The notes beneath the pieces were generated by a model. That model ran no database searches. It saw only the letters and a program-made list of their open reading frames with translations, and was not told the DNA's origin. Positions 219 through 56,144 of a stretch of DNA of 59,168 nt are shown one piece after another (position 1 is the stretch's first letter; each line of letters begins with the position of its first letter). Origin of the DNA: a virus. The DNA is taken from the IMG/VR virus record IMGVR_UViG_3300048837_000773, positions 1 through 59,168 of that record; one strand, given 5' to 3'. The position numbers and the translations under genes are program-made.

Positions 219-243
219 TGCATGTTGATCGGAATAAGTTTTT

Positions 244-456
244 TTATCGGACTATGAACAAAATGGCGGATGACGCTATGAAGGCCAGGCCGACTAAAGC
301 GGCAAATTTCTCTTTTGGCGTAAGCGAATCGCCGCCAAACATGCTGCTGGCGCTGGTATCGATCATGGTTCTGACTGCCCAGGGGATGATGCCCTTTCCC
401 AAAAAGAAGATGCCGAAACTGAGCAAAAATAGCGTTGAAACGACGTTGAGATTCAC
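244..456 (-). CDS. Small two-helix membrane protein next to attL
   Basis: This 70-aa protein has a GTG start preceded by AGGGA at good spacing. It is hydrophobic at residues about 5-27 and 49-68, giving two probable membrane helices with a short polar stretch between. It is AT-richer than the phage core and sits alone beside attL, as prophage cargo genes often do. A plus-strand frame (131-487) overlaps it but lacks domain-like composition. I do not recognise a family; a lysogeny-expressed membrane protein is only a guess. Confidence 0.5.
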   Translation of the reverse strand: MNLNVVSTLFLLSFGIFFLGKGIIPWAVRTMIDTSASSMFGGDSLTPKEKFAALVGLAFIASSAILFIVR

Positions 457-874
457 GTTTTTTCCCTGTTTTTGGGCTTTTTCGTGAAAGTGGTAATCGG
501 ACCGGTAATAGCATATTTCAAATCGGACTATACCAGTCTATTACCACTCCCACCGGTCGAAAGACAAAATTTTGGACGTTTTAGGCCATCCTAAAAAATG
601 GGCTGGGAGACCGGCAATAATAAGAGGTAGAAATAGGGCATTTTGTGGGATTTCACCTCATTTTTAGGGGTATATGCGTCATTTTTAAGGGATTACGCAG
701 GAATATGAAAAAATGTTTGCAAAAAACAAGGGGTATATGTTTTAACCGGTGGGAGTGGTGGGACCGGTAAAAATGGCCGTATAACCACTCTAACCACTCC
801 CACCGGTCTGGGAGATAAGACATAACATTTTTCGCAATTAATCAAATTGCATCCGATAACATACATTATCGGTT
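457..874. other. Gene-free, AT-rich, repeat-rich stretch
   Basis: I see no convincing gene here. The 15-bp word ACCACTCCCACCGGT occurs at 543-557 and 793-807, and inverted at 745-759; the last two form a perfect 15-bp inverted repeat 33 bp apart. Shorter pieces recur: GGACCGGTAA (499-508 and 761-770), TAACCACTC (782-790) and GGGGTATATG (about 667-676 and 730-739). The stretch may hold operators, integrase or replication sites. Confidence 0.6.
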
Positions 875-1435
875 CTAATTCCCAAAACTTACTATCCCTT
901 GGCAAGTTACCACACCATAAGATGCTGAAGACTCTCCATTTTTCCACTGCTCACCGTTTACCAATATGACACACTCCACTCTTCCTGTTTCCCCCTGATT
1001 CTGAGCAACAAGTGAGACAGTAGTACCATTTCCTACAACCATAGTTTTTGACCACGGTAGTTTTGCCTCCAATTGGTCTATTCCCCCATCCTCATTTATG
1101 TAGGTTATCAGAGAGGATTTTGCAGATCCAGTCACTTCGTACCTGACTGCACTATCGAATATGGTCACTGATTTTTCTGGAGTATCACCATTAGTAATGG
1201 AATTCAGTAATTCTTGTTCAATGCGATTGGTTTCTTTCTGGATGTAATTTACTCCCAAGATAACAGCAAGTAGAACAGCAGCTCCGAACAATAGCGCTAC
1301 TACTGCGCGAGCATTGCTTGAATTTTGCTGCGGCGAGTTAGGATCCTTTTTTAATGTCTCCAACTCGCGGTTACAAAAACGACACATGATTGCTTCGTTC
1401 TGGATTTCTTCAGCACAGTATGGGCACTTTTTCAT
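875..1435 (-). CDS. Zinc-ribbon, single-TM protein with MmpS-like domain
   Basis: This 186-aa protein starts at an ATG after GGGAGGA. Residues 1-24 are a zinc ribbon (C4-x2-C7, C18-x2-C21). Residues about 43-65 form a membrane helix. The C-terminal part ([38 protein letters not shown]) matches the pattern of MmpS-type/membrane-linked accessory proteins. It is the last gene of the minus-strand repressor operon, so it is probably expressed in the lysogen and may alter the host envelope. Its role is not known; homologous phage proteins of this layout occur as cargo. Confidence 0.75.
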
Positions 1436-1444
1436 CTGTCCTCC

Positions 1445-1723
1445 CTATTTGAGCAGCCGATATGTGATTAATGGGGCAACGGAGTAAACCGTGATTGCAA
1501 CACAGAGGGATGCTATCCAAAGGATAGGGACCATAATGGGTGGAACTGTTTGTGCAGGCGGCATCATCACGAGATTTACCAGCGTGATAATCGCATGAAG
1601 GAGTGCAAGTCTGAAGATAACCGGTAGACGTTGGAATTTATTTTTAAAAAAAAGAAACCGAAGGAAGTGAATTGCCAGGTTACGGCGTACCCGGCCCAGG
1701 ACGTTCCACGCGTCGGGAAGCAA
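1445..1723 (-). CDS. Small membrane protein, TTG start
   Basis: This 92-aa protein starts at a TTG that follows AGAAGGAG at 9-nt spacing, a very strong ribosome site and the main support for this start. It overlaps the end of the repressor gene by 44 bases, suggesting co-transcription. Two hydrophobic segments (about residues 35-58 and 63-88) are probable membrane helices; the N-terminus is basic. No family is recognised. Its position between a repressor and the MmpS-like gene suggests a lysogenic cargo or superinfection-type function. Confidence 0.6.
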   Translation of the reverse strand: MLPDAWNVLGRVRRNLAIHFLRFLFFKNKFQRLPVIFRLALLHAIITLVNLVMMPPAQTVPPIMVPILWIASLCVAITVYSVAPLITYRLLK

Positions 1724-2078
1724 TTTTCTTATCTCCTTCTCCAGCTAAAAAGCGTATGAAATCAATAGCCTGCTGACGTTTATCTTCAGGAAGTTGGGAC
1801 AATAAATATTCGGCTTCAGCAGTAAGGGGGTCATCATCAGGTAAATGAGGGAGAAGCCCAGCAGACCGAAAAACAATCTCGGGACGTATTTTTAGAGCCT
1901 TAGCAATTGCATTGCAAACGTCAGGGCCTGGCTTGCGTTCTCCTGACATGATTTTGGATATGGCGCCAGAAGAAATACCCCCACGGCGAGTGAGTTCTAT
2001 TTGAGCCCACCCGCGAGCGTCCAATTCAAACTGAAGCCATTCCGCGAAATCTGTCATATGACAGAATAATGTTATCAT
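1680..2078 (-). CDS. XRE-family HTH repressor (lysogeny regulator candidate)
   Basis: This 132-aa protein has a classic helix-turn-helix (residues about 18-60, including QIELTRRGGISSGAISKIMSG), as in CI/XRE repressors, and a helical C-terminal tail. The chosen ATG has AGGA 10 nt upstream; an ATG seven codons later (2057) has no ribosome site but lies inside a perfect 16-bp palindrome. The gene is divergent from the early operon and its upstream region is rich in palindromes, so it most likely sets the lysis-lysogeny switch. No peptidase domain is present, so RecA-stimulated self-cleavage is unlikely. Confidence 0.85.
   Translation of the reverse strand: MITLFCHMTDFAEWLQFELDARGWAQIELTRRGGISSGAISKIMSGERKPGPDVCNAIAKALKIRPEIVFRSAGLLPHLPDDDPLTAEAEYLLSQLPEDKRQQAIDFIRFLAGEGDKKIASRRVERPGPGTP
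2050..2065. promoter_or_regulatory. Perfect 16-bp palindrome at the repressor start
   Basis: TCTGTCATATGACAGA is its own reverse complement and covers the internal ATG of the XRE repressor. It is a likely operator, possibly for self-control by the repressor. Confidence 0.6.
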
Positions 2079-2457: not shown

Positions 2458-3522
2458 GTGATGGATAAAAAGACCGAAATCGTTCCGTTGTTTGGCGAGG
2501 TGGTGGTTGCCACGGCAAGGCCAGAGCCTGGTCCGCGTGAGACGGACCGGATGTCGGCGTGGGCGGAAGCCTTCGAGCTGTGGATGGGCAGCCTGAAAAC
2601 GGAAAACACCCGGCGGGCATACCGCAAGGCGTGGGACGATTTCCTTTCTTTCACGGGGAAGAATCCGTGGGTGGTGGGAAAAACGGACGTGGCGCGGTGG
2701 GTGGAAGATATGCGGATGCGGGGTTTGAGTGCGTGCACGATCCAGCAGCGGATCGCGGCGGTGAGCTCCTTTTTCCGCTACACCAACGATGAGCACACGG
2801 TGATCAGCCCGGACGGGCGGGAAGTGTCGCTGCACTCGATCAACCCGGCGGCGGGGAAGAGCCTGCGGCCGAAAGTGGTGCCGTACGGTAAGGCGATCCA
2901 CCTTTCCGCCGAGGAAGCGCGGGCGCTGCTCAAGGCAATCAAGCGGAATACGCTGCAAGGGCTGCGGGATTACGCGTTGATTTTGGCTTACCTGTTTACG
3001 GGTCGGCGGAACAGCGAAGTGCGGGTGCTGCGCTGGGGTGACTTTGAGGTGAGTGCGGGGCGGGCCTGGTACCGGTGGAGTGGGAAGCATCACGAGAATG
3101 AGCGCTTTGAGCTTCCGGCGCCGGTGTGGGAGGCGATCCGGGCGTACCTGAAAGCGGCCGGGCGGTTGGAAGCGATGCAGGATGGCGACCCAATCTTCAC
3201 GGCGCTTTCGAACCGCGCGACGCGGCTGCCGAACGTGAACGCGCTGGCATTCCTGCCGACACGCCAACCGCTCTCGATGCGCGAGGTTGGACGGCTGCTG
3301 AAGGTGTACGCGAAGCGGGCGGGGTTGGACCCTAAAAAGGTGCACGTGCATACGCTGCGACATACGGCGGCGATGCTGCGAAAAGAAGCGGGTGATGACG
3401 TGCAGAAGATTAGCGCGTTTCTGGGTCACAGCTCGCTCGCGATTACCCAGATCTACCTTCATAAAGTGGAAGGCCAGAAGGATGAGAGCTGGGCGAAAGT
3501 GGAGAGTTTGTTGGGCCTGTAA
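2458..3522 (+). CDS. Tyrosine recombinase (left copy)
   Basis: This 354-aa protein has an N-terminal SAM-like core-binding domain (about residues 30-110) and a C-terminal catalytic domain. The usual residues are visible: Arg in GRRNSE (about 183), HTLRH (H298, R301), LGH (H324) and Tyr in QIYLHK (333). GTG and ATG starts are adjacent (2458/2461) after AGGGG. It is not near the complete attachment site, while a second integrase is, so it may serve dimer resolution, excision or another site. A truncated relative follows it directly. Confidence 0.88.
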   Translation: MMDKKTEIVPLFGEVVVATARPEPGPRETDRMSAWAEAFELWMGSLKTENTRRAYRKAWDDFLSFTGKNPWVVGKTDVARWVEDMRMRGLSACTIQQRIAAVSSFFRYTNDEHTVISPDGREVSLHSINPAAGKSLRPKVVPYGKAIHLSAEEARALLKAIKRNTLQGLRDYALILAYLFTGRRNSEVRVLRWGDFEVSAGRAWYRWSGKHHENERFELPAPVWEAIRAYLKAAGRLEAMQDGDPIFTALSNRATRLPNVNALAFLPTRQPLSMREVGRLLKVYAKRAGLDPKKVHVHTLRHTAAMLRKEAGDDVQKISAFLGHSSLAITQIYLHKVEGQKDESWAKVESLLGL

Positions 3523-3564
3523 GGCCAGGCATCGGTACGGTTACGTATTCAGTTGAGGTGGGAT

Positions 3565-4062
3565 ATGGATCTGATGAAAGTACGGAACGAGTTATTGCCT
3601 CTCCAGCCCAGGGAGGCAGCCAGCATGCTACAAGCCCTTCCGGTGCATACGCTCCAGGGGCTGCAGGATCACGCAATGCTGGTAACGGCGCTGGGCTTGC
3701 GGCTGCGGATTCGCGAAACGCTGGCGATGACGGTGGATGAAGCAGAAGGGTTATCGGAAGCGTTGGTACAAGCGCTGACCCAGACGTACTATGCCGCGAT
3801 GAAACAGCGGTACTGCGTTCTTGGTTGGGATAATGCCTTCCCGGCCCTCCACATTCGTGAACGCGGGCAGGTGACTGCCCGATCTAACAGGAGTTTTGTT
3901 CTGACGTTGAAACTGGCGGCCGACGGCGCGGGGATCGACCCGGACCGGATCGATCAGGGAACCTGGCGGCAACTGGCATACCAGATTCACAGCAGGCCTG
4001 GCGGTTTCGCGGCATTCGTTTCTACGTTCGCACCATTTGCGACGCCGGGAAACCAGTACTGA
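3565..4062 (+). CDS. Catalytically degenerate tyrosine-recombinase paralogue
   Basis: This 165-aa protein aligns by eye with the catalytic domain of the preceding recombinase: HTLQGLQDHAMLV matches NTLQGLRDYALIL, and GIDPDRIDQGTWRQLAY matches GLDPKKVHVHTLRHTAA. The first catalytic Arg (RLRIRE), the second Arg (GTWRQ) and a C-terminal Tyr persist, but both active-site histidines are replaced (Gly for the first, Pro at the LGH position) and the core-binding domain is absent. The ATG follows GAGGTGG. The stop codon lies in a dispersed palindrome. It could be a regulator or partner of the active recombinase. Confidence 0.65.
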   Translation: MDLMKVRNELLPLQPREAASMLQALPVHTLQGLQDHAMLVTALGLRLRIRETLAMTVDEAEGLSEALVQALTQTYYAAMKQRYCVLGWDNAFPALHIRERGQVTARSNRSFVLTLKLAADGAGIDPDRIDQGTWRQLAYQIHSRPGGFAAFVSTFAPFATPGNQY

Positions 4063-4078
4063 TAACAGGCATTATCAG
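4059..4078. repeat. Dispersed palindrome copy (CTGATAA / TTATCAG)
   Basis: The arms are perfect, with a 6-nt spacer. The TGA stop of the recombinase-like gene lies in the left arm. Confidence 0.75.
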
Positions 4079-4123
4079 CATACACGATCAACGATGGTCA
4101 CCATAGGAAAGGAGGAGAACGGG

Positions 4124-4552
4124 ATGATTTTTCGCAGTTGGCTATATGAGCCTACGACCTGGTTGGTGCTGGCGTTTCTGCTGGTTTTTGGCATCAGCTA
4201 CAACGCACTGGTAGCGCAGCTGGAGTCGATGCGGCATGACCGGGGGTATACGGCTTTTTTGGTCGTGGGTGGTTGTTTGGTCACACTGGCAGGGGGCAGC
4301 ATGCTGGCCGGTTTCGAGATGGGGGCATGGTTTACAGCCTGTTTCGCAGCCAGCGGTCTGCCGATGGTGATCGGCAGTTGGGCAAGGAATTCGCGGGCGC
4401 GGGTGGCCGAGGAGAAAAAGGTCGCCGATCTGGCGAAGGAGATGCTTAATGACGCCGAGGAAACCGAAAGGGTATGCGATCAATGCGGAGATTGCCCGCG
4501 CAATCAATGCGAATGGGGCGGCCAGGAGAGCGCTGCTGCGCATCCTAGATGA
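4124..4552 (+). CDS. Membrane protein, three predicted helices
   Basis: This 142-aa protein has an ATG after AAAGGAGG. Three hydrophobic segments (about residues 10-30, 45-61 and 64-82) are followed by a charged, partly coiled tail with a late Cys cluster (CDQCGDCPRNQC). The last 104 bases overlap the next gene in another frame. No family is recognised. It lies upstream of the translocase cluster and may belong to that envelope-associated set. Confidence 0.6.
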   Translation: MIFRSWLYEPTTWLVLAFLLVFGISYNALVAQLESMRHDRGYTAFLVVGGCLVTLAGGSMLAGFEMGAWFTACFAASGLPMVIGSWARNSRARVAEEKKVADLAKEMLNDAEETERVCDQCGDCPRNQCEWGGQESAAAHPR

Positions 4553-4694
4553 GACGCCGGGGCCGCAGCTGACGGCAATGCTGATCGCAAAAGCGGCGGC
4601 GGCACTGGGTGAGAATCTGGACGCCCTGCGTGAGATTGAGAAGATTGCCGGGCGGCCGAGAAAGAGAACGTCTGAAACCGATAAGCAAGTTTGA
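4449..4694 (+). CDS. Small basic helical protein, overlaps previous gene
   Basis: This 81-aa protein has an ATG seven bases after AAGGAG. The sequence is Ala-rich and helical (INAEIARAINANGAARRALLRILDE), with a basic end (GRPRKRT). The overlap with the preceding gene is large for this phage, so one of the two frames may extend less far than drawn. The function is unknown; a small DNA-associated protein is possible. Confidence 0.5.
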   Translation: MTPRKPKGYAINAEIARAINANGAARRALLRILDETPGPQLTAMLIAKAAAALGENLDALREIEKIAGRPRKRTSETDKQV

Positions 4695-4760
4695 TCTTTT
4701 GAAATTATCCACGGGTCACAGGAGCCCACGCGAGGAACCCCTGCTTCGCGAAAATCCTGA

Positions 4761-4829
4761 GGGCGAGTAGCTCAATGGTAGAGCGCGGTACCCACCACCG
4801 AAATGCAGGTTCGATCCCTGCCTCGTCCA
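4761..4829 (+). tRNA. tRNA-like gene with a defective anticodon arm
   Basis: The 69-nt sequence folds as a cloverleaf. The acceptor stem is GGGCGAG/CTCGTCC (one G-T pair), the D arm is GCTC-AATGGTA-GAGC, and the T arm is GCAGG-TTCGATC-CCTGC, followed by A. The anticodon arm is only 15 nt (CGGT/ACCG around ACCCACC), lacks U33, and the variable region is short. The loop centre would read CCA (Trp-like), but a standard tRNA cannot be assigned. It is either a decayed phage tRNA or a tRNA mimic. Confidence 0.6.
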
Positions 4830-4860
4830 ATCCCACCAGGTCGGATGCCTGGCGGAAAAA

Positions 4861-4936
4861 GGAGCGGCGGCGTGGACGCGACACGCAACCACATCGATTG
4901 GCGAATCGATTTACCCCGTCGACTCGGGGCCGCTCC
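4861..4936 (+). ncRNA. 76-nt cloverleaf RNA, tRNA-like
   Basis: The outer stem GGAGCGG/CCGCTCC encloses three hairpins in tRNA order: GCGTG/CACGC, ATCGATT/AATCGAT (loop GGCG) and CCCCG/CGGGG with loop TCGACT, which resembles a T loop short of one base. The length matches a tRNA, but there is no 7-nt anticodon loop and no canonical D loop. It directly follows the tRNA-like gene, so a pair of structured RNAs sits in this 350-bp gene-free gap. Confidence 0.5.
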
Positions 4937-4997
4937 CCTGTTTACCGGTAGTTATTGGTGCTTTTAGCGGTTTCTTTAGCGGTAGATCTTCATCCAC

Positions 4998-5024
4998 TGG
5001 TGCGGCGGCGCGACCGCCGCACCA
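4998..5024 (+). promoter_or_regulatory. Perfect 11-bp hairpin upstream of translocase operon
   Basis: TGGTGCGGCGG and its complement flank a 5-nt loop. The hairpin lies 24 bases before the ATG at 5048 and has no U-tail. Just upstream TTTAGCGGT occurs twice (4963-4983). It is a likely RNA processing or translation-control element rather than a terminator. Confidence 0.5.
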
Positions 5025-5047
5025 GGAAACACAACAGGAGGGGCTCA

Positions 5048-5335
5048 ATGAAAGGGTTTGGGGCGTTGGCGGTTTTCATTGTGGTGGCATACGCATTTGC
5101 GCTGCTGGTGGGGGGGGTGTTGAACGTGCTGCCGGGCTTCGAGTACGTGGACGGCAAGCAGGCTTTTGTTTACCCGACTGAGACCGGAGAAGTTGCGCTG
5201 GTGCTGGCCAGCGGGGAATACCTGGTGGAGGGGACGAGCATCCAGACAGGGTGCTACAAGCTGGAGCAGCCGGAGTATGGGCAGATCCGCGGGCGCGCGC
5301 ACTGGATCTGGCCGTTGTGCGGAGAGGCGAAGTAA
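5048..5335 (+). CDS. Small membrane-anchored protein of translocase cluster
   Basis: This 95-aa protein has an ATG after ACAGGAGGGG. An N-terminal hydrophobic helix (residues 4-25) is followed by a short extracytoplasmic-looking domain rich in beta residues with two cysteines (TGCYKLEQ, PLCGEA). It ends directly at the start of the next gene. Three adjacent membrane genes ending in the FtsK-like ATPase suggest a membrane complex. No family is recognised. Confidence 0.65.
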   Translation: MKGFGALAVFIVVAYAFALLVGGVLNVLPGFEYVDGKQAFVYPTETGEVALVLASGEYLVEGTSIQTGCYKLEQPEYGQIRGRAHWIWPLCGEAK

Positions 5336-5872
5336 ATGAACCGGTTTAAGTTGATCGTGGTTGGGATCGTGGCGCTGATTATTGCGGGCGCCATTTGCAC
5401 GGCGAGTGGGAGCAGCCTGATGAACAACACCAGCCACGCAATCACATCACAGGCCAACCTGGAAGGCATACGGACCATGCGCTTTATGGCTGGCACGATC
5501 GACCGCCAGGCGACGATGAACACGATTGCATTGGGGATTGTGGCGGTTGTCCTACTGGTAATGGCGCTGATCGTTGGGGCGCTGGTGGTGCGATTTATCT
5601 TGGTGGGTGGCGGGCGGTCTGGAAGCTCGCGTGCTGGATGGATGCCAGAACGCGGACGGATGCCGAAATTTATCAGCCTGGGGAGTGACGTACGGCCGTA
5701 CCTGGACCGGCTAAACCCGGAACAGAAAACCCTGCTGCTTGAAAGGCTGTACACCATTTGCTCTTACCTGGAGCGGGACCTGGGGAACCGGCGGATGGGC
5801 CGAGGCAGAGAACAGCGGATGACGGTATATGAGCGGGATGACGACTCCAATTCGGCGATCTTCTGGGGATAG
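5336..5872 (+). CDS. Two-helix membrane protein of translocase cluster
   Basis: This 178-aa protein begins 1 base after the previous stop. It has hydrophobic segments at about 5-25 and 63-90, a loop between them, and a charged cytoplasmic tail (LNPEQKTLLLERLYTICSYLERD). Five bases separate it from the translocase ATG. The layout suggests a membrane partner of the ATPase. No known family was recognised. Confidence 0.65.
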   Translation: MNRFKLIVVGIVALIIAGAICTASGSSLMNNTSHAITSQANLEGIRTMRFMAGTIDRQATMNTIALGIVAVVLLVMALIVGALVVRFILVGGGRSGSSRAGWMPERGRMPKFISLGSDVRPYLDRLNPEQKTLLLERLYTICSYLERDLGNRRMGRGREQRMTVYERDDDSNSAIFWG

Positions 5873-5876
5873 CGGT

Positions 5877-7832
5877 ATGCGTGGATTTGTGGCTATGGTG
5901 CTCTTCATCGGGTTTTGTTACCTGGTCTACCTGGCGGCGACCGGTGGAGAAGGGCTGCCGGAGCTGGAAGCGGTGAGCGGCGCGCTCGATACGCGGGCGG
6001 CGGCGTATGACGCAACCAGCCAGGCGGCCGAATTCCAGGCGGCGCAGATCCGGACGGCGCAAGCTATCCGTACGCAGGAAGCAGCAGCAGTGAGCCAGTG
6101 GATTGCGGCAACCGGACAGGCGGAGATGATGGCTATCACGCAGGCGGCAGGCCGAGAGACGGCCGCGGTGGCGATGCAGTTCACGCGTGAGGCATTCCAG
6201 TACACGGTGGAAGCAGGGCAAGCGAACCAGACCGCAACCGCGCGCGTGCTGGAGACTGTAACGGAAGCAACGAAAGCCGCGATGGACCTGCAGCAGACGG
6301 CGGATGTGGCGGGGCTGAACGCGTTTGCTACCGAGCAGGCGCAGATCAACCAGCGCGCGGAATTAGAGCTGCGCAAGAAGGCCATCGAAACCCGGACCGC
6401 GGAGAGTACGTGGTACCTGAAGCCATTGGGCTGGGTGGCGGTGGGGATTTTTATCGCAGTGGTGGTCTTCTGGCTGCTCAAGATGAAGGATGACACGAAT
6501 ATCAAGAGTATTCCCCGGGCTTTTACCGGGGAAACGGAAGCTGTTGTGGCGAAGGGAAAGGTAATCAACCCGGATCGGGGCATTGGACCGGTGATCGATC
6601 CGTACCATCCTGTGTCTTCTGGCACGCCGGACCAGATGCGGGTAACGCTGACGGACCAGGGCATGGCGGGAATCGGGCGGCTGACCCGGGCAGGATACCC
6701 GGTTTCGGCGCGCCAGGCGGCGGAACGGTTGGCGGGGCAGGCTGCTGCGGGCGCTCAGCAGCTCCCGGCGCAGGGGGAGGAGCTGCCCAGCGTGGCGCCG
6801 TGGGATCTGACGGGATGGACGGGCAGCACGCTGCCGTTGGGGATTGGCGTGGGGCGAACGGCGATTACGTTGAACCCGGAGCGGACGCCAAACCTGCTGG
6901 TGGCCGGTACGAGCCGGTCTGGGAAGACCATGATGGGGATGCGGCCGGTGATGGCCGAGGGGCTGGTGAGCGGCTGGCAAGTAATTTTGCTAAACGAAAA
7001 AGGCGGCGACTTCACGCCGTTGAAGAGTCACACAAACCTGGTAGCGGTGGACGGCGAGGCTGAGTCTGTTGCGGCTGTACTGGAAGGGATGGCGCGGGAA
7101 GTCAGCCGAAGGGACAGGATCCTCAAAGAGGCAGGTATATCGACGTATTACCGGCTGACGAATGCCAGCCAGGCGCTTGGACCGCGGGTGATGGTGGTGA
7201 TTGACGAGCTGGTAAGCCTGATCAACGGAGCCCCATCAAAGGCGATGAGCGACCACATCTGGAGGCTGGCGGTGGCCATCACCAGCAAATGCGGCGCAAT
7301 GGGAATGATGGTAGTGATCGGCAGCACCGATCCCAGTTACCGCACGCTGGGGCGGCAAGGGTTGACGGTACGGGATAACTGCGGGCGGATGGTGTTCCGG
7401 ATGCGCGATATGAGCAGCTCACGAGCTGCGCTGGATATCGGCGGGGCTGAGTCATTGACGGGCGCGCAGTTTATCGCGCAGCTCGACACGGAAGCGGTCA
7501 AAGGGGTGGCGTTCCACCCCGAGGATGAGGACGTGGCGCGGTTTTTGGCAAACCGGCCGGTGGCGGCGCTGCCACAACCGAGGTGGTTGGGTGGTGGATC
7601 CGTCGAGGGTTCGCAGCCCGAAATCAGCGTTTGGGAAGCGGAGACAATCGCGCTGGCGAAGAAGATTGAAGAGGTTTGGAAGGCGGGTGGGAGTAAGCGC
7701 GCCATGGCCCGGTCTGCTGGGTTTGAGTATGTCGGGAACCACTGCATCAAGATCGACCGAGCAATTGAATACCTGGTTGCTACTACTACTGCTAACGATG
7801 ATGATTTGGCCGAAAATGCGGAGGTTGGTTAG
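5877..7832 (+). CDS. FtsK/SpoIIIE/HerA-type membrane-anchored DNA translocase
   Basis: The 651-aa protein starts at the ATG after GGGGA. Residues 3-22 and about 181-205 are membrane helices flanking a long Ala/Gln-rich, coiled-coil-like segment. The C-terminal ATPase has a Walker A (AGTSRSGKTMMG, about residue 342) and a Walker B (VMVVIDELVSL, about 438). The C-terminus looks like a winged-helix (KIEEVWKAGGSKRAMARSAGFEY). Such ATPases pump DNA through membranes in division, sporulation and actinomycete-type conjugation. In a phage it might act in DNA uptake, packaging support or transfer; none of these is proven. Confidence 0.85.
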   Translation: MRGFVAMVLFIGFCYLVYLAATGGEGLPELEAVSGALDTRAAAYDATSQAAEFQAAQIRTAQAIRTQEAAAVSQWIAATGQAEMMAITQAAGRETAAVAMQFTREAFQYTVEAGQANQTATARVLETVTEATKAAMDLQQTADVAGLNAFATEQAQINQRAELELRKKAIETRTAESTWYLKPLGWVAVGIFIAVVVFWLLKMKDDTNIKSIPRAFTGETEAVVAKGKVINPDRGIGPVIDPYHPVSSGTPDQMRVTLTDQGMAGIGRLTRAGYPVSARQAAERLAGQAAAGAQQLPAQGEELPSVAPWDLTGWTGSTLPLGIGVGRTAITLNPERTPNLLVAGTSRSGKTMMGMRPVMAEGLVSGWQVILLNEKGGDFTPLKSHTNLVAVDGEAESVAAVLEGMAREVSRRDRILKEAGISTYYRLTNASQALGPRVMVVIDELVSLINGAPSKAMSDHIWRLAVAITSKCGAMGMMVVIGSTDPSYRTLGRQGLTVRDNCGRMVFRMRDMSSSRAALDIGGAESLTGAQFIAQLDTEAVKGVAFHPEDEDVARFLANRPVAALPQPRWLGGGSVEGSQPEISVWEAETIALAKKIEEVWKAGGSKRAMARSAGFEYVGNHCIKIDRAIEYLVATTTANDDDLAENAEVG

Positions 7833-7863
7833 CAAGTTAGCAGTTAGTAGCAGTAGTAGTAGC
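7779..7863 (+). repeat. Trinucleotide-based inverted repeat at translocase stop
   Basis: GCTACTACTACTGCT (7779-7793) is the exact reverse complement of AGCAGTAGTAGTAGC (7849-7863). The stop codon at 7830-7832 lies in the 55-nt loop. It could form a long RNA hairpin at the gene end; there is no U-tail. Confidence 0.7.
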
Positions 7864-7879
7864 ACTCGAAAATGGATGA

Positions 7880-7899
7880 CTGATAAGGCTTCTTATCGG
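7880..7899. repeat. Dispersed palindrome copy (CTGATAA / TTATCGG)
   Basis: The spacer is 6 nt. It is intergenic, 15 bases before the GIY-YIG start. Confidence 0.75.
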
Positions 7900-7913
7900 A
7901 ACTGGAGAAGAGG

Positions 7914-8201
7914 ATGGTTTACCTGCTGCATTTTGAAAAACCTTATTGCCATGCCCGGCATTACATGGGGTTTACAGATAACCTGGACCGGCGATTGGCT
8001 GAGCACCGGAACGGCAGCGGGTCGCGGCTGATGGAAGTGATCAGCCAGGCGGGAATCGGTTGGGAGCTGGCACGCACCTGGCCCAAGGGGGACCGCGCTT
8101 TGGAACGCAAGCTCAAAAAGCAGAAGCATGCGTGGCGGCATTGCCCGATCTGCCGGGCCGAACGGCACATGCGTGAAGTGATCGAACTTTCAAAAGAGTA
8201 G
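7914..8201 (+). CDS. GIY-YIG superfamily nuclease-like protein
   Basis: This 95-aa protein has a VYLLHF start, HYMGFTDNLDRRLAEH, and ALERKLKKQKHAWRHCPIC. These follow the pattern of UvrC-N/GIY-YIG small nucleases (beta strand, GFT-x-NLxxRLxEH, then the Lys-rich helix). The classical GIY is replaced by LLH and YIG by YMG, so activity is uncertain. A CxxC pair lies near the C-terminus. It may process phage DNA or be a homing-type remnant. Confidence 0.7.
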   Translation: MVYLLHFEKPYCHARHYMGFTDNLDRRLAEHRNGSGSRLMEVISQAGIGWELARTWPKGDRALERKLKKQKHAWRHCPICRAERHMREVIELSKE

Positions 8202-8209
8202 GAGGACAT

Positions 8210-8575
8210 ATGACGGAGCAGATCGTGAACGGAGTCGAGGTCGAGCGGATGCGGGACCTGGCGGAGCAGGTAACGCCGGTGGCGCAGGTGTGCCGGGTGT
8301 TCCACCCGTGCGGCGAGACAGCCGCGGTTGTGACAGAAAGCGGCCGGGTGATTGCGCGAGGCCTGCGCCTGGCGGATGCGCAGTTCTTTGCGGAGGGACC
8401 GCGGGCAGTGATAGAGCTGTGCAACGAAGTGAGCCTGCTGAAGGCGTACGTGGAGTACGTGAGTATCTCGGTTGAGCTCGCGGGCATCATGTTTCAGAAC
8501 GGACTGTACGAAAAGATGTTGCCGATGACGTATGACGTGTGGGTTGCGATGGTGGCGAAGGGGATGGAGCCATGA
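8210..8575 (+). CDS. Hypothetical early protein
   Basis: This 121-aa protein has an ATG after AGGAGGACAT. The N-terminal half is mixed alpha/beta (VCRVFHPCGETAAVVTESGRVIARGL), the C-terminal half helical. The last 4 bases overlap the next ATG (ATGA), so the two are translationally coupled. No domain is recognised. Confidence 0.6.
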   Translation: MTEQIVNGVEVERMRDLAEQVTPVAQVCRVFHPCGETAAVVTESGRVIARGLRLADAQFFAEGPRAVIELCNEVSLLKAYVEYVSISVELAGIMFQNGLYEKMLPMTYDVWVAMVAKGMEP

Positions 8576-9099
8576 GTACTCTGGAAATTCCAGATACTTT
8601 CACTGCTTTGACGATACCGGTGCCGCCTTCCCCTATTTTGGAGAACGCACTCGGCTACCGCCAGCATGCGCGGTGGTTTGCGACCTGGTGGGAACCAGGT
8701 GGAGACGAGGCGATGGTCAGTGATGGCCATATTGCAATGACCGGCAGTTGGGAAGGTTTTTTGACTTTCACAAAGCCGTTCTACAAGCAATTGGAAGTCT
8801 TCGAGCTTGGTAACTCGGACGTACCGGCAAAACACTGGCTAATGATCGACAGGGAAGCGCGCAAGGCATATGCGGCGCCAGCGCGCGAGGCCGGGCGGTT
8901 TTTGCGGGCGCAGTGGCCCAAAACGAATGTCACCCACATTACGGAGGAGCAATGGCGGGAGATCGTGGAAAAACTGCAAGAGCAGCTCCGGATTGTCAAG
9001 CCGCCAACGGCCAGAGAAATGGCGGCAGCCTACCAGGCACACATGGACGCGCAGGCGACGCTGCAGGCATGGCTGAACGTATGGTTCAACCGAAATTAG
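8572..9099 (+). CDS. Hypothetical early protein
   Basis: This 175-aa protein starts at the ATG overlapping the previous stop. It is Trp-rich in the N-terminal half (ARWFATWWEPGGDE..GSWEGF), suggesting a compact alpha/beta fold, with a helical C-terminus (HITEEQWREIVEKLQEQLRIV). The family is unknown. Confidence 0.6.
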   Translation: MSTLEIPDTFTALTIPVPPSPILENALGYRQHARWFATWWEPGGDEAMVSDGHIAMTGSWEGFLTFTKPFYKQLEVFELGNSDVPAKHWLMIDREARKAYAAPAREAGRFLRAQWPKTNVTHITEEQWREIVEKLQEQLRIVKPPTAREMAAAYQAHMDAQATLQAWLNVWFNRN

Positions 9100-9299
9100 G
9101 GAACCCGAGCCGGTGTAGGCGGTATTTTTCTCTTTTGGAGAAATTGGGCGAGGAGATGCGGCAAGATCCTACGATTGAAGAAACGGTGGATGATGCGCTG
9201 GCCAGGCTGCGGGCGCACTTTGAAGTTTGCCCTGACTGCCAGGCCTGGTGGAAGTGGATTTGGGAAGTGACAGAACCGAAAAAGGAGCTGCAAGCGTGA
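9069..9299 (+). CDS. Small CxxC protein preceding parA
   Basis: This 76-aa protein starts at ATG 9069 (alternatives 9081 and 9156; no strong ribosome site separates them). The core LGEEMRQDPTIEETVDDALARLRAHFEVCPDCQAWWKW is helical and ends in a CPDC pair. It overlaps the previous gene and shares its stop with the GTG of parA (GTGA), so it is coupled to the partition genes. The function is unknown. Confidence 0.5.
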   Translation: MAERMVQPKLGNPSRCRRYFSLLEKLGEEMRQDPTIEETVDDALARLRAHFEVCPDCQAWWKWIWEVTEPKKELQA

Positions 9300-10099
9300 A
9301 AACAATCGGCATTATGAATCAGAAGGGCGGAGTTGGAAAAACCACAAGCGCGGTCAACCTATCGGCATGGTTCGCGAACCACGGTTTCCGGGTGCTGCTG
9401 GTGGATATGGACGTGCAGGGGCATGCGGGAATTAGTCTGGGGGCCGGGAAAGGGGATGGTACGTACCGGTGGCTGCGTGAGGGCGAGGCGCTGAGGGGTC
9501 TGGTAAGCCATGCCCGGCCAGGCCTGGACGTGCTGCGCAGCAACAAACAGACGGAAAAGATCCGTTCGCACATGATGGAAATGATTGCGCGCGAGCTGTA
9601 CATTGCACGGCGCCTGGCAGAGGACGCGAACGATTACGACCTGGTGGTTTTGGATATGGCGCCGGGCAGCGACGTGGTGCAGATCGGCGGGCTGGCTGCC
9701 TGTGATTATTTCCTGGTCCCCTGCCCTATGGAATTTCTGAACCTGGACGGGGTCGTGGAAGCGATCAATTCGGCGCGCTCCCTGGGGCTGTTTCCATCGA
9801 TCGAGCCGCCGATGCTGGCCGGTGTGCTGCCCACGAAGTTCGAGCGGCGGCCGAATGACGTGCACGAGAACGTGACGCGGCTGAGCGAAGTGGTGCCGGT
9901 CGAGCAGATATTACCGCCGATCCCGAAGGACGTGCGGGCGCCGGAAGCGGCCGCGCGGGGAATGACAATCTGGGAGTATGCGCCATCAACGGCGGCAGCG
10001 ATCGGGTACAAGACCGACCAGACGCGGGGGGTCAACAGCCTGGGCAACCTGGGCGGGTACCAGCACGTGGCGGAAATTCTCAACACGCTGCTGTTTTAG
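9296..10099 (+). CDS. parA: ParA-type partition ATPase
   Basis: This 267-aa protein has a GTG start after AAGGAG. It carries the deviant Walker A KGGVGKTTSAVN (about residues 9-20), the A' motif LLVDMDVQGHAG and a Walker B VVLDMAPGS. It lacks an N-terminal HTH, so it is the small type that works with a separate centromere-binding protein. The next gene (RHH) and the 12-bp repeat array behind it complete a partition-like set. The prophage may replicate as a plasmid at some stage, or ParA may act in positioning. Confidence 0.88.
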   Translation: MKTIGIMNQKGGVGKTTSAVNLSAWFANHGFRVLLVDMDVQGHAGISLGAGKGDGTYRWLREGEALRGLVSHARPGLDVLRSNKQTEKIRSHMMEMIARELYIARRLAEDANDYDLVVLDMAPGSDVVQIGGLAACDYFLVPCPMEFLNLDGVVEAINSARSLGLFPSIEPPMLAGVLPTKFERRPNDVHENVTRLSEVVPVEQILPPIPKDVRAPEAAARGMTIWEYAPSTAAAIGYKTDQTRGVNSLGNLGGYQHVAEILNTLLF

Positions 10100-10108
10100 G
10101 AGGTAGAG

Positions 10109-10501
10109 ATGGCAATCAAAAAGGATGCACCGGTGCAAGCGCTGGTGGACCCAGCCGTGCAGGCGGCGCTGGGGGAACAAAGCGCTGACCCGGTATACAG
10201 CGGGATCCACCGGCTGCAGGCCGCGCGGGGAATGACGCCGGGGAAAGCCAAGAAGCGGCAGCGCGACCGCGAACGATCGAAAGTTACGTTCGATTGGCCA
10301 CAGTGGCTGATCGAGCGGCTTGAGGAAATGGCGGGCGAGGAAGACAACTCCTTCCCCATCAACCAGCTTACCGCCATTCTCGTGATCGAGGGACTGCGGG
10401 CTGTGGCGGCCGGGCGGCTGGATATCCGGGCGCGGAAGATCCCAACCAGGACGCCAAAATTCGATTGGTTCCTGCGCGTGGATGACGAAACGGATCTATA
10501 A
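10109..10501 (+). CDS. RHH protein, probable ParA partner
   Basis: This 130-aa protein starts 9 bases after parA with AGGAGG. The N-terminus is flexible and basic (GKAKKRQRDRERSK). The rest (KVTFDWPQWLIERLEEMAGEED..PINQLTAILVIEGLRAV) has the strand-helix-helix order of ribbon-helix-helix proteins such as ParG or omega. Unlike classic ParB, such partners bind short tandem repeats, and exactly such repeats follow at 10563-10646. The assignment is by context and fold pattern. Confidence 0.7.
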   Translation: MAIKKDAPVQALVDPAVQAALGEQSADPVYSGIHRLQAARGMTPGKAKKRQRDRERSKVTFDWPQWLIERLEEMAGEEDNSFPINQLTAILVIEGLRAVAAGRLDIRARKIPTRTPKFDWFLRVDDETDL

Positions 10502-10504
10502 GCT

Positions 10505-10681
10505 ATGCGAAACGATACGCGACGCGGGAAAAACAGCGGAATGGGCGAATGGGCAAAAATCTACGCCAGCGATAACGCCAGCATAAACGCCGGGAATAAC
10601 GCCAGCATAAACGCCAGCATAAACGCCAGCGATAACGCCGGGATACAAACGGCCAGGAAGGGCGCACACGAACGTATATAG
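10505..10681 (+). CDS. Possible 58-aa protein encoded through the 12-bp repeats
   Basis: An open frame of 58 codons runs through the array because the repeat length is a multiple of three. It gives tetrapeptide repeats of the type NASI/NASD/NAGN between basic ends. No ribosome-binding site precedes the ATG, so I favour the DNA-site explanation and list the frame only as an alternative. Confidence 0.2.
   Translation: MRNDTRRGKNSGMGEWAKIYASDNASINAGNNASINASINASDNAGIQTARKGAHERI
10563..10646. repeat. Seven tandem 12-bp iterons (ACGCCAGCATAA type)
   Basis: Seven head-to-tail units start with ACGCC at 10563, 10575, 10587, 10599, 10611, 10623 and 10635. The unit tails are AGCATAA (three), AGCGATA (two) or GGGAATA/GGGATAC. 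The array lies between the RHH gene and the primase gene, a place suited to a partition centromere or a replication origin. Confidence 0.85.
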
Positions 10682-10767
10682 GGGGCCGGTTCTCGTAAGT
10701 GGTCCATATCAAAAATGCATTCTACGGACTCTACGCGGGTCTTTTACGGGCGACCAGATGAGGCATT

Positions 10768-13929: not shown

Positions 13930-13946
13930 AGAAAGGAAGGGGTGCT

Positions 13947-46468: not shown

Positions 46469-47805
46469 TGGCGTACCAACTGCGGCTTACAGACGGCACG
46501 AATACGCTGTTTACCTTTTCGGATGGGGTGAACTGCATCATCCAGGCGGGGATGGGCGAGTCGCCGGCGCTGCCCACGGAAGACGTGGCGTGGGTGGAGG
46601 AGGTGGTGCCGATCCTGTTGATGGGCGGGCTGACCACGATCCAGAACAATATGCGAACGATCAACCGGACGCTGGCGGATGCACGCTATAAAGAGACGGC
46701 GCGCGCCGGCGGGCATATCTACCTGGAGAAGAGCGCAAGCGATACGGATGGATGGTGGCGGGCGAAGATCCGCGGCGGGGAGCTGAGTGGATACTCCATC
46801 GACCAGGCCATTCGAACGGGGAAGATGCTGGTCCAGCTTACGGTGGAGCGGGTGGATTACTGGGAGGGTGCGCTGACGAGTGTGACGGTATCGAACCGGC
46901 ACGGGACGAACGCGACCGGGTTGACCGTATATAACCACATGGACGGGGACGCGGACAATTACGTGCAGCTCGCAGCGAACCAGATCACCGGCGATCTGCC
47001 CACGCCGGCATTGATCGAACTGACCAACCTGTTTGCCGGAAACGTGAATTTCGTGTGGATTGGGCATAAATTTACGGGCGCACCGGCAACATTTTCGCCG
47101 GTTTACGAGGGTGAAGCAGCGATCGGTAAGAGCGGCACAACCTATACGGATGCATCGAACGGGCGGTATGAGGCGCTGCAGGCGTTCAGCGGAATAACTA
47201 CACAACTGCTTACCTGGACGCTGAGCACAGCGCAAATGGACGCGGCAGCGGGGGGATGGTTCCACGTGTTTGTGCGCCTGGCTTCTGCAAGCGCTTTTCC
47301 TCACGTAACGCGGTTCGAGCTGGCGCTGACACAGGGCGCCGGGCGCGTGTGGGCGTCGGGAACACATATGCCTGGCGACTCCTTTATGACGCTGTACGAC
47401 CTGTTCTTGATGCGCCTGCCACCATGGCTGCCAGGCGCGACCGGGAGCGGCTCGCTGACGATGGAGCTGCTGGCGCTGCAGGCGAGTGGGGCCACGGCGT
47501 ACTACAACGTGGATTACGTGTACCTGATGCCGGCAGATGGCTTCCGGCACTACCGGGTAGAGTCGTACGCGATTGGACAGAACCAGCGCCTGGTGGATAA
47601 CGGGCCAGACGATGAGGTGTACCGGGATGCCGGGAATGGGACGGGGAAGATTGGGAACGTGATTGCCGCGGGGGATCCGATTATGCTGCGGCCGGGCAAG
47701 CTGCAACGGTTGTACTTCCTGGTGCAAGACATCAACGGAAACAGCCAGGTAGCGAGAACCGCGTCCGCTAAGATCTCTTATCGGCCCAGGCGGCGGGATC
47801 TATGA
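46468..47805 (+). CDS. Distal tail-like protein
   Basis: This 445-aa protein overlaps the tape measure stop by one base. The start MAYQLRLTDGTNTLFTFSDG and the beta-rich make-up fit a distal tail (Dit) protein with a carbohydrate-binding-like insertion (about 230-400). The pattern CCGCTAA / TTATCGG is embedded near the end (47765-47784). Confidence 0.75.
   Translation: MAYQLRLTDGTNTLFTFSDGVNCIIQAGMGESPALPTEDVAWVEEVVPILLMGGLTTIQNNMRTINRTLADARYKETARAGGHIYLEKSASDTDGWWRAKIRGGELSGYSIDQAIRTGKMLVQLTVERVDYWEGALTSVTVSNRHGTNATGLTVYNHMDGDADNYVQLAANQITGDLPTPALIELTNLFAGNVNFVWIGHKFTGAPATFSPVYEGEAAIGKSGTTYTDASNGRYEALQAFSGITTQLLTWTLSTAQMDAAAGGWFHVFVRLASASAFPHVTRFELALTQGAGRVWASGTHMPGDSFMTLYDLFLMRLPPWLPGATGSGSLTMELLALQASGATAYYNVDYVYLMPADGFRHYRVESYAIGQNQRLVDNGPDDEVYRDAGNGTGKIGNVIAAGDPIMLRPGKLQRLYFLVQDINGNSQVARTASAKISYRPRRRDL
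47765..47784. repeat. Dispersed palindrome copy (CCGCTAA / TTATCGG)
   Basis: The spacer is 6 nt. The left arm CCGCTAA is the complement of the TTAGCGG arm seen at 43414 and 51203. It lies in coding sequence 21 bases before the stop. Confidence 0.55.
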
Positions 47806-51005: not shown

Positions 51006-51206
51006 ATGAGCGAGAACATCACACAGGCCAGGGACCGGTACATCCAGCAGCGCGAGCAGGCGCTGGCGCGACAGCACGAGCTGGAGAAGGAGCTGGTGCG
51101 GGTGCAACAGCTCACCATCGCGTTGAGCGGGGCCATCGAAGCCCTGGACGCGCTGCTGCAGGAAGGGCGGGTGCAGCAGGAAAACAGAACCGATAAGACA
51201 AGTTAG
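51006..51206 (+). CDS. 66-aa coiled-coil protein
   Basis: The ATG follows AGGAGGCAT. Almost the whole length is a single coiled coil (ARDRYIQQREQALARQHELEKE). It probably trimerises with fibre or lysin proteins. The stop lies in the right arm of a palindrome. Confidence 0.65.
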   Translation: MSENITQARDRYIQQREQALARQHELEKELVRVQQLTIALSGAIEALDALLQEGRVQQENRTDKTS

Positions 51207-51209
51207 CGG
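51190..51209. repeat. Dispersed palindrome copy (CCGATAA / TTAGCGG)
   Basis: The spacer is 6 nt. The right arm runs into TAGGAGG, the ribosome site of the glycosidase gene. Confidence 0.7.
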
Positions 51210-53512: not shown

Positions 53513-53569
53513 AGACAATCGGGAGCGGGGGCCGGGATCGGCCTCCGCTCCACCAAACAAGGATGGGCT

Positions 53570-55834
53570 ATGGCAAACCGCGCGGCAGAGATTAGAGCAA
53601 CAGTGCAGAGCCAGTCCCCCGGCGCCGTGGTGACCGCACGGGGACGTAACTGGATTGAGCACGCGCTGGTCGATGGTCGGCGCGTGCTCGACGCCGGCCT
53701 CGGGCCGCTCCACGTTGCCGGGACTGAGACAGAGATCGATACGGCCTGGCGGGCCACAACCGGCGCGTGGCAGTACCAGATGGTGCTGGCCGACTACAAC
53801 GCCTACGCCCGTAGCCAGCTAAATGCGGGTGACACGGTACAGTACCGCGACCCAGGGAGCGGCGAGACCGTCACATTCCAACCATTGGCGCTAAATTGGG
53901 TCAACGAGGTTGGTTCGCGGCAGCAGATCACGCAACCGCAGAGCGTGATGGCGACGGTTGCCGATGACGTGCTGCGGTGGCAAAACGGGTATGGCGCTGG
54001 ACGGCATTTTCGGTGGCAGGCGCAAAGTGCGCGGCTGCAGAAGCTATTGACGATCGACAGCGCGGCCAACTTGCCTGCTCCAGCAGCATGGCTAACGGGG
54101 ACGAGGTGGCTGGAGCTTGAATTTATCGTTAAATTTTCGGCAGGGATTGATCCCTGGCTGGATGGGGTTAAATGGTCGCGCGGCACGACGCCAGTACGGA
54201 CGGCCAACCGTGTCGAGTTCCGCTCCATTGCCAGCGGAGCCGCGCTGTGGCACCTGGACTACCCGCGCGCCTGGGACAGCGCGGGGAATGAGGTTGTTGG
54301 GCAGTACGAGTTACGCAGGCAGTCGAGCAGTTACTACATCACCGTGCGCGTGCCGCAGGCATGGCTGCAGTCGGCTGTGTACCCTGTGTACATCGACCCG
54401 ACGATTGAGGTGTCGGTGAGTGCGGGCAGCAACGACGGCCATTGGTGGGAGGGCACCACCGATTTTGATGCTGACTCCTCATATATGCTCGTCGGCAACG
54501 GGAACCAATGGGGGCGGGGGGCGATGAACGGCTTTGCACGCTTTGTAGGGTTGGCTGGCCTGCAAGGCATGACCGTGGACAGCGCTTACCTGCGTTACAC
54601 GGCTAATGAGTCGTTTAGCACAGCGACCTGTCGTATTCGGATACGGGCTGTGGCGGCGGATAATCCCGCTGCGCCAACCAGCTACGCTCAGGCCGAGGGC
54701 GCAACGCGCACCACGGCCTACGTGGACTGGTCGGTGCCTGCGGACGTCAACAACGTCGCAAAAAACAGCCCAGACATTGCCGCTGTGGTGCAGGAGGTGG
54801 TCAACCGCTCGGGATTCGGCGGCGCACTCATCGTCTACCTCGAAGATAACGCTTCTGACAACAACGCCAGGAGGTACGTTGGCCCGTACGACTGGTCGGC
54901 TACCAATGCGCCGTTGCTGCACATAGAGTACTCGGAGGGATTGCCAGAGGGGATTAGCGCATCAGTCACACAAATGGTCCCGACCTTTTCCATGAGCAGC
55001 ACGGGACGCGTGGGCGCTAGAGGATCTGTGGCTTCTATAATCCGTAGACCGGGCGCTTCCAGCGCCGCAGCGCCTCGGGTAACTGGGTTTGCTCAGGGAA
55101 CAATGCAGATCGTCGCCACCAGCAAAGCAGTCCAGGTTCGCGCAAACGGATCCCGGGCCGTGGTCCTGACTCGGCCAGCAAACACGAATATGGCGGCAAC
55201 GCGGGTTCATGTTTCTGCGGCGCCAGGATCCGTCCAGAGGATGAATACCAGCGCTGCTGCCCAGGTGGCCGCTGGCGGATCACGGACCACCGTTTTCCAA
55301 ATTCAAACCCTGGCAGGTGGAGGGGTGCAGATACGCGGGTCTGCGGAAGCGGTTTTAAGGTTCGTCCTGGCTGCGGCTGGAACGGTGGGAGAACCAGGTG
55401 AAACAATCACAGGGCAGATCCACCGAGTGCTGGAGAAACTCGATACGAGTTACCGCGTGCAATTGGGCGCGCCTGCATTGACCAATCAGGCGATTCACGC
55501 ATCCAGCAGCAGCAGGACAGCCCAGGTCAAGACGTTCGGCAGGACGACCATTGAAAGGGTTATGGCGGAGATGGAATCCACCGCATCCGCTGGCGTGCAG
55601 GTCACTGGATGGCTGGTAGAGGAGCAGGGATTTGAACGAGATCGCACGATGCAGGCGGGGGTTTCAGGGTACCTGGCCTATACGATTGCGAAATTGCTCA
55701 AGGCTGCGGTGGCGCGCGCGGGAGCGTTTGGGCCCAATGCGCAGCTCGTTTTGACTATCGTCGAGCCCGTCATGCTGGCGGTCATGGAACAACAAGAAAC
55801 GACGCTCCATTTGAGCGAAAGCGAGGGTCAATGA
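53570..55834 (+). CDS. Large tail fibre-like structural protein
   Basis: This 754-aa protein has an N-terminal DNRLRE-like beta domain: VDSAYLRYTANESFSTATCRIRIR, then VVNRSGFGGALIVYLEDN (about residues 345-440). A variable Thr/Ser-rich repeat region (about 470-680) and a helical end follow. The repeats suggest a receptor-contact region. Confidence 0.7.
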   Translation: MANRAAEIRATVQSQSPGAVVTARGRNWIEHALVDGRRVLDAGLGPLHVAGTETEIDTAWRATTGAWQYQMVLADYNAYARSQLNAGDTVQYRDPGSGETVTFQPLALNWVNEVGSRQQITQPQSVMATVADDVLRWQNGYGAGRHFRWQAQSARLQKLLTIDSAANLPAPAAWLTGTRWLELEFIVKFSAGIDPWLDGVKWSRGTTPVRTANRVEFRSIASGAALWHLDYPRAWDSAGNEVVGQYELRRQSSSYYITVRVPQAWLQSAVYPVYIDPTIEVSVSAGSNDGHWWEGTTDFDADSSYMLVGNGNQWGRGAMNGFARFVGLAGLQGMTVDSAYLRYTANESFSTATCRIRIRAVAADNPAAPTSYAQAEGATRTTAYVDWSVPADVNNVAKNSPDIAAVVQEVVNRSGFGGALIVYLEDNASDNNARRYVGPYDWSATNAPLLHIEYSEGLPEGISASVTQMVPTFSMSSTGRVGARGSVASIIRRPGASSAAAPRVTGFAQGTMQIVATSKAVQVRANGSRAVVLTRPANTNMAATRVHVSAAPGSVQRMNTSAAAQVAAGGSRTTVFQIQTLAGGGVQIRGSAEAVLRFVLAAAGTVGEPGETITGQIHRVLEKLDTSYRVQLGAPALTNQAIHASSSSRTAQVKTFGRTTIERVMAEMESTASAGVQVTGWLVEEQGFERDRTMQAGVSGYLAYTIAKLLKAAVARAGAFGPNAQLVLTIVEPVMLAVMEQQETTLHLSESEGQ

Positions 55835-56118
55835 AGATCAATACGTATGACGTGGGAGATAGGCCAAAAATCACGGGGCAGTTTTACCGTGAGGGAGAAC
55901 TGGTAGATCCCGACTCGGTGGCAGCTACTGTGAGAGATCCGGCCGGCATGGTCACCACGCTGGAAGTAGGCACGGGGCTGGAGCGCGTATCGGTTGGAAC
56001 GTACAGCTTCACAATCGACATCACTGCCAGCGGTACCTGGTTTTATCGGCTTGCCGGCAGTGGCGCACACCAGGCGGCAGCGGAGGGAGCTTTCCGAGTG
56101 CGGCCAAGTCGCGTTTAA
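55831..56118 (+). CDS. Small Ig-like structural protein
   Basis: This 95-aa protein overlaps the previous gene by 4 bases. It is a single beta-sandwich (DVGDRPKITGQFYREGELVD; GTYSFTIDITASGTWFYRLAG). It is probably a fibre tip or decoration. Confidence 0.65.
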   Translation: MKINTYDVGDRPKITGQFYREGELVDPDSVAATVRDPAGMVTTLEVGTGLERVSVGTYSFTIDITASGTWFYRLAGSGAHQAAAEGAFRVRPSRV

Positions 56119-56124
56119 TCGCGG

Positions 56125-56144
56125 CTGATAACGGTACTTATCGG
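56125..56144. repeat. Dispersed palindrome copy (CTGATAA / TTATCGG)
   Basis: The spacer is 6 nt. It is intergenic, 18 bases before the phosphoesterase start. Confidence 0.78.

Follow-up and report, generated by a model that had tools for sequence, protein, structure and literature searches.

A dispersed palindrome family in a Chloroflexota-type prophage and its relatives as a possible array of Xer/dif-type sites

What are the palindromes that recur along the prophage of IMG/VR virus record IMGVR_UViG_3300048837_000773, and which protein would read them? The stretch analysed (positions 1 to 59,168 of the record, 59,168 nucleotides, hereafter the window) contains a prophage that has a copy of the 3' part of a tRNA-Pro gene at each end. 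Few systems of dispersed protein sites are known on phage genomes. The original prediction described about sixteen 20-bp palindromes and suggested that they could be phage stoperators, operators of a regulon or RNA processing hairpins. The explanation that we favor, with about even confidence, is that they make up a genome-wide, near-even array of Xer/dif-type core sites, most likely bound by a XerD-like recombinase that the phage encodes at 2461-3522. The Xer/dif geometry, the even spacing and the phage-specific arm sequences are points that go beyond the original account.

Sites in the window

The palindrome family is real. Within the window, 16 sites fit the motif CYGRTAA-N6-TTAYCRG with at most one mismatch, whereas 100 dinucleotide shuffles, a control that the original prediction had itself proposed, gave 0.06 on average and never more than 1; the stricter right arm of that prediction, with up to three mismatches, gives 48 strand-matches against 8.9 expected. 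The fixed distance between the arms was also borne out: among spacers of 0 to 18 (one mismatch or less), a length of 6 gave 16 sites, a length of 7 gave one and the others gave no site. The spacer of 7 belongs to the outlier at 11735, whose arms are perfect. The list of sites first given needs some revision, since it overlooked a perfect site at 853 and included position 231, which, with three mismatches, probably falls outside the family. Positions 50559 and 56030 (two mismatches each) are doubtful members. The working set comprises 17 sites:

853-872, minus strand: CCGATAACATACATTATCGG, with an AGAA extension on the minus strand; past the stop of the leftward gene 875-1435
4059-4078, plus strand: CTGATAACAGGCATTATCAG; overlaps the stop codon of 3565-4062
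7880-7899, no strand assigned: CTGATAAGGCTTCTTATCGG; intergenic
11735-11755, no strand assigned: CCGATAATGTTTTATTATCGG, with a 7-bp center; within the primase gene, filling an expected spacing gap
14798-14817, plus strand: CCGATAAGCCAGGTTATCGG; overlaps a stop codon
19282-19301, plus strand: CCGGTAATGTGTCTTATCGG; overlaps a stop codon
23352-23371, plus strand: CCGATAAGAGCAATTATGAG; overlaps a stop codon
28395-28414, minus strand: CCGATAAGGGGGATTATCTG; outer arm reversed
31960-31979, plus strand: CTGATAATCGAGCTTATCGG; directly after TerL, with a site at the same place in relatives L001, L002, G024 and G006
36462-36481, no strand assigned: CTGATAAGTGTTCTTATCGG
38473-38492, plus strand: CCGGTAATCGACGTTACCGG; GGTAA/TTACC in both arms
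40579-40598, plus strand: CAGGTAAGAGATATTATCAG; within a coding gene, with the identical 20 bases in G024
43401-43420, plus strand: CTGATAAGAACTGTTAGCGG; intergenic
47765-47784, no strand assigned: CCGCTAAGATCTCTTATCGG; close to the 3' end of 46468-47805
51190-51209, plus strand: CCGATAAGACAAGTTAGCGG; overlaps a stop codon
52590-52609, plus strand: CCGATAAGCCAAATTATCTG; within a coding gene
56125-56144, no strand assigned: CTGATAACGGTACTTATCGG; intergenic

The sites are close to evenly spaced. Their mean spacing is 3454 bp with a coefficient of variation (CV) of 0.28, where random positions would give 0.92 +- 0.20 and random gene junctions 0.86 +- 0.17. As had been claimed, they mostly sit at gene junctions: 13 of the 17 are at or near gene ends and four are deep inside genes, although deep gene interior makes up 83% of the window. 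In several sites, again in agreement with the first description, the motif's TAA or TGA serves as the stop codon of a gene. The rule that unequal arms carry CTG on the left and CGG on the right is followed in the window, but relatives depart from it: CCG..CAG is found in G024 and G008.

Arrays in related phages and the architecture of dif

Megablast of window positions 4000-24000 against a collection of 50,697 phage records gave zero matches, and a portal-based search of assembled-genome contigs found nothing. A search with a TerL alignment then recovered loci in metagenome-assembled genomes (MAGs); the TerL relatives among assembled genomes are mostly from Chloroflexota MAGs. The window motif is also present in the TerL relatives G024 (11 sites in 43 kb), G006, G008, G022, L001 and L002, whereas an array of the window type is absent from the same-TerL relatives G014, G023, G033, G035, G040 and G041. 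Variant arrays exist in G013, G015 and the G043 prophage. The G013 form is GTTCCGAGTA-N6-TTATCGGAAGTG, with a fixed left arm (CCGAGTA) that is used in both orientations among the late genes; the G015 form is C.GTTCCGCTAA-N6-inverse. The window integrase was used for a second search, which yielded 80 viral loci whose whole contigs were submitted to a dyad analysis. Several of these phages proved to carry their own arrays, whose arms are different but whose form is in every case TAA-N6-TTA or TAA-N7-TTA. The spacer of 6 clearly dominates over other spacers in G062 (18 vs 0.1), G068 (20 vs 1.3) and G063 (13 vs 0.6), as does the spacer of 7 in G064 (19 vs 0.6) and G058 (14 vs 2.6).

The motif search in related phages that the original prediction had proposed thus reveals arrays in at least 16 other Chloroflexota-type phages, in which the arms differ and the form remains constant. 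Refined motifs were obtained for 18 phages, among them G059, whose form is odd; by these motifs, each phage has between 7 and 22 sites, which lie 1.8 to 4.2 kb apart on average with CVs of 0.15 to 0.45. The 13 sites of G013 were counted with its own matrix because the shared model fits this phage poorly. In all 14 phages tested, the spacing is more even than that of random gene junctions (p of 0.0006 or less), the most regular array being that of G063 (13 sites, mean 2169 bp, CV 0.15). The motif models and the tests were drawn from the same contigs, many of which are metagenomic fragments with genes called by a simple script. The absence of an array was judged from TAA-N6/N7-TTA counts and dyads, by which degenerate arrays can be missed (that of G015 escaped the dyads). 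The strongest dyads of G036 and G014 turned out to be minisatellites and were rejected as arrays.

The motif does not belong to the host. Whole Chloroflexota genomes of 2.7-6.9 Mb contain 2 to 31 one-mismatch matches each, which makes a host-wide regulon operator unlikely; an exact scan of IMG/VR for CCGATAA-N6-TTATCGG mostly returned lone chance matches. RNA hairpins, whether for processing as in the original prediction or for termination, are barely credible. The arms are indeed complementary and some of their differences retain pairing (G-U), yet the G013 arms cannot pair fully, the orientations are mixed among late genes, and the wobble cells (16 G-U vs 9 C-A) have no clear strand bias.

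The constant form is instead reminiscent of the sites of Xer recombinases. It consists of a half-site of approximately 12 bp (CWGTNNCGATAA), 6 bp (7 in two phages, G058 and G064) and the inverse half-site; the inner ends are TAA...TTA and the spacer is strictly 6 or 7 in the relatives. When 17 phages are given equal weight, the half-site reads roughly C-W-G-T-W-C-C-G-A-T-A-A (12 bp), the inner TAA being nearly invariant. The architecture described for dif is two inverted 11-bp half-sites around a 6-bp center (PMC5357621). The published examples scored here come from one paper. Among these, the Myxococcus xanthus XerC half-site AGGTCCGATAA is identical to AGTTCCGATAA at 10 of 11 positions. Under the 17-phage model, the score of this arm has p=1e-5 relative to random 11-mers, or p=0.001 when the outer seven bases alone are scored, values that are not blind because M. 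xanthus had been noticed among the examples before scoring. The published XerD half-sites mostly share little with the phage model beyond ATAA.

Several properties of the dif sites of XerCD, XerA and XerH are therefore found in the array: two inverted half-sites of about 11 bp with a 6-bp center (16 of the 17 window sites), inner ends of the form ATAA...TTAT, a half-site of Xer type (AxTT....ATAA) whose sequence resembles that of published XerC half-sites, and a Xer-like recombinase encoded by the genome itself. A Xer site normally stands alone, a known dif occurring once per replicon, whereas the window has 17 near-evenly spaced sites and the relatives 7 to 22. The phage arms, moreover, are phage-specific and near-symmetric in most cases, and the array has no association with an FtsK-like gene: such a gene was tried as a correlate and rejected, as it is present in some array-less genomes and absent from some array-bearing ones. 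A search for the universal dif (TTATGT arm) in seven Chloroflexota MAGs gave one match, which is the chance level.

Candidate proteins

Besides TerL, portal, tail and replication genes, the window has genes for an XRE protein, an Arc-like protein and two tyrosine recombinases, each with two domains. The genes that bear on the reading of the sites are the following:

1680-2078, minus strand: XRE repressor-like protein, whose divergent promoter (2079-2180) carries no array site
2181-2372: Arc-like protein
2461-3522, plus strand: XerD-like tyrosine recombinase (g01) with the full catalytic set; the best predicted candidate for the site-binding protein
29505-30110, plus strand: TerS-like protein (g40), upstream of TerL; second-best covariation with the sites
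57913-58866, minus strand: second tyrosine recombinase, adjoining the att site; probable integrase into tRNA-Pro, with no significant covariation with the sites

Covariation was evaluated by Mantel tests between arm-model distances and protein distances in the 12 phages that have all three of g01, the TerS-like protein and the integrase (10 phages for XRE); G059 was omitted because of its odd array form. The association and covariation tests were chosen after the arrays had been seen and are based on 10 to 17 phages. The recombinases were split into two classes by their C-terminal pattern. The strongest covariation is that of g01 (r=0.71, p=0.0001), which persists when the TerS-like protein (r=0.52, p=0.0075) or gene content (r=0.66, p=0.0006) is controlled for. 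In the g01 tree, arrays occur in 12 of 19 rows of one part (several of the rest being short contigs) but in just one of the 20 rows that form the other main clade; G013 stands apart on a long branch. The catalytic residues are kept in all 13 aligned g01 proteins, the nearest sequences to the family are E. coli XerD, XerA and a XerC-like protein, and the AlphaFold model of g01 (predicted local distance difference test, pLDDT, 79) matches XerA and the XerH-difH and Cre-loxP complexes. The integrase at 57913-58866 was rejected as the binder: it looked promising on six genomes, but its close relatives (55-58%) lack a window-type array and its covariation is not significant (r=0.28, p=0.09).

The TerS-like protein could alternatively bind the sites, which would then be dispersed and related to packaging. 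Its family is the best correlate of the array by presence (17 of 18 array-bearing phages vs 2 of 13 controls) and it covaries with the motif (r=0.60, p=0.0001; 0.54 with gene content controlled). This covariation nevertheless falls to r=0.29 (p=0.03) once g01 is controlled for, and a two-arm site of 28-30 bp would be unusual for TerS. The family is also present where no array was detected, in G056, G069 and the out-of-sample phage Rctr41k; the latter carries the TerS-like protein and two recombinases but no such array, and the protein thus failed there as a predictor. A packaging function seems quite unlikely.

The stoperator idea, in which a lysogenic repressor (XRE, the Arc-like protein or the recombinase as a mere DNA-binding block) would stop transcription across the silent prophage, fares somewhat better. 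The phage is temperate, the sites lie mostly at gene junctions and are evenly spread over transcribed DNA, and the motif variants are phage-specific. The stoperators of Cluster A mycobacteriophages (L5, Bxb1, Trixie) are likewise many, dispersed, phage-specific and often at gene junctions, and their motif changes between phages along with the presumed binding protein; the distance between motifs tracks that between repressors (PMC6550527). Yet stoperators are asymmetric 13-bp sequences mostly found in one orientation, whereas the array is made of 28-30-bp palindromic sites with two 12-bp arms, whose orientations are mixed within the late genes of G013. Stoperators are also present at the repressor and early promoters; in contrast to the L5 operators, the divergent promoter of XRE has no array site in any of the window, G015 and G013, the early lytic promoter being unmapped. 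XRE relatives are found in array-less phages as well, and the covariation of XRE with the arms is not significant (r=0.32, p=0.14). What stands of the original suggestion is a dispersed, phage-specific and presumably protein-bound array that recurs in relatives. A repressor-based silencing array appears rather unlikely; a block to transcription as such is possible.

The window also encodes ParA (9296-10099), followed by a small protein (10109-10501), which might suggest that the sites are centromeres for partition, bound by the ParA-linked protein. However, G013, G015 and G036 have arrays but neither ParA nor its partner, whereas G040 and G041 have both genes and no array, which makes partition highly improbable.

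Possible roles of the array and neighboring repeats

If g01 is the binder, one protomer would occupy each half-site, and thus two each site. All the 6-bp centers within a genome differ, none being repeated; about one or two repeats would be expected by estimate, so that this non-repetition is likely by chance and says little on whether distinct centers are selected. Differing centers generally block the completion of strand exchange by tyrosine recombinases. Two different sites of the same genome should therefore be unable to complete an exchange, and the array would act either between corresponding sites of sister genomes or as a bridge that involves no exchange. In the first case, exchange between corresponding sites could resolve genome copies or concatemers; in the second, paired or bridged sites could fold or silence the genome. 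Of the two, copy resolution seems to us slightly more likely than bridging. The site at 11735, with its spacer of 7, stands at the position predicted by the spacing, a hint that binding counts for more than exchange. A tentative extension of the favored reading, on which we would not insist, is that the arm code of each phage and the individual centers of its sites let the phage Xer recombinase pair sites along the genome or between sisters while avoiding deletions. This would be a new genome-organizing or copy-resolving system in a large group of Chloroflexota-type temperate phages.

Another role for such a recombinase would be to swap gene modules between phages at the sites, as at pdif cassette boundaries. 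The pdif/dif modules of Acinetobacter plasmids resemble the array in having several Xer-type sites per molecule with varied centers, and some breaks in homology start exactly at sites (G008 vs L010 at 8726; G008 vs G022 at 19968). In L016, a 2.1-kb insert (3109-5270) lies between two sites where the relative L170 has a single one (11759). Nevertheless, pdif sites flank mobile modules and use the host XerCD, whereas the array arms vary with the phage protein and no general enrichment of breakpoints was found: 5 of 64 divergence change-points in 14 related pairs are 60 bp or less from a site, against about 2 expected, which is not a clear enrichment. The centers that flank the L016 insert and the single L170 center all differ, and the centers at corresponding sites of the window and G024 differ as well, so that exchange between them would be blocked. 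Module exchange of this kind is very unlikely.

Several observations weigh against the favored reading of Xer-type sites bound by g01. The M. xanthus score was not blind, the sites are many per genome, their distinct centers may be fortuitous, and the breakpoints are not clearly enriched near them. The site at 11735, with its 7-bp center, would be expected to recombine poorly. The TerS-like protein covaries with the arms too, and this covariation does not vanish when g01 is controlled for. No g01 was found on the contig of the array-bearing G068, and, beside Rctr41k, a second recombinase occurs with no detected array in G056, G067, G069 and G076.

No precedent for such an array was found in a limited search of open-access papers. 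The nearest phage example is that of the Tyroviruses, tailed phages with several tyrosine recombinases, in which a putative attP has two 11-bp inverted repeats and a 6-bp core beside one recombinase gene (PMC9703825); this 11-6-11 geometry is shared with the array, but the attP is single and not dispersed. If true, an evenly spaced array of Xer-type sites in many related phages would represent a new use of the Xer recombinase family. It makes several questions testable: which protein reads the sites, whether heterologous centers block exchange yet allow pairing, and whether the even spacing serves folding, silencing or copy resolution. The 17 or more differently coded natural arrays are, in addition, a ready specificity series for tyrosine recombinases.

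Other repeats and genes were noticed along the way. The window carries a phage-borne tRNA-Trp gene (4761-4829). Two direct 24-nt repeats TAGGGTAATCCGTGATGCAGTTGG at 166-213 adjoin the tRNA-Pro att core and are possible accessory integrase sites. Repeated and inverted copies of ACCACTCCCACCGGT at 480-820, between the att site and the leftward gene 875-1435, look like a separate regulatory repeat family. The interval between the XRE and Arc-like genes (2079-2160) contains AGATAATAGC-GCCCGT-GCTATTATCT and other palindromes unlike the array, which are likely the repressor's own operators. Elsewhere, G036 (L230-L232) and G014 (L159-L161) have dispersed minisatellites of CACTTCC-type and CCCCTGA-type heptamers in 13 or more places each, and G058 (L329-L331) has a second dispersed palindrome, CTTCT-N13-AGAAG, of which several of the 9 copies are about 60 bp or less from array sites. 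Besides their array, G065 and G066 have dispersed GC-rich inverted repeats around GGGCGAGG...CCTCGCCCCTAC. Finally, many GGTAACGGCCGTTACC-like palindromes are spread over the contigs of the host MAG G047 (Anaerolinea sp. CH6), all with one fixed center, unlike the varied centers of the phages.

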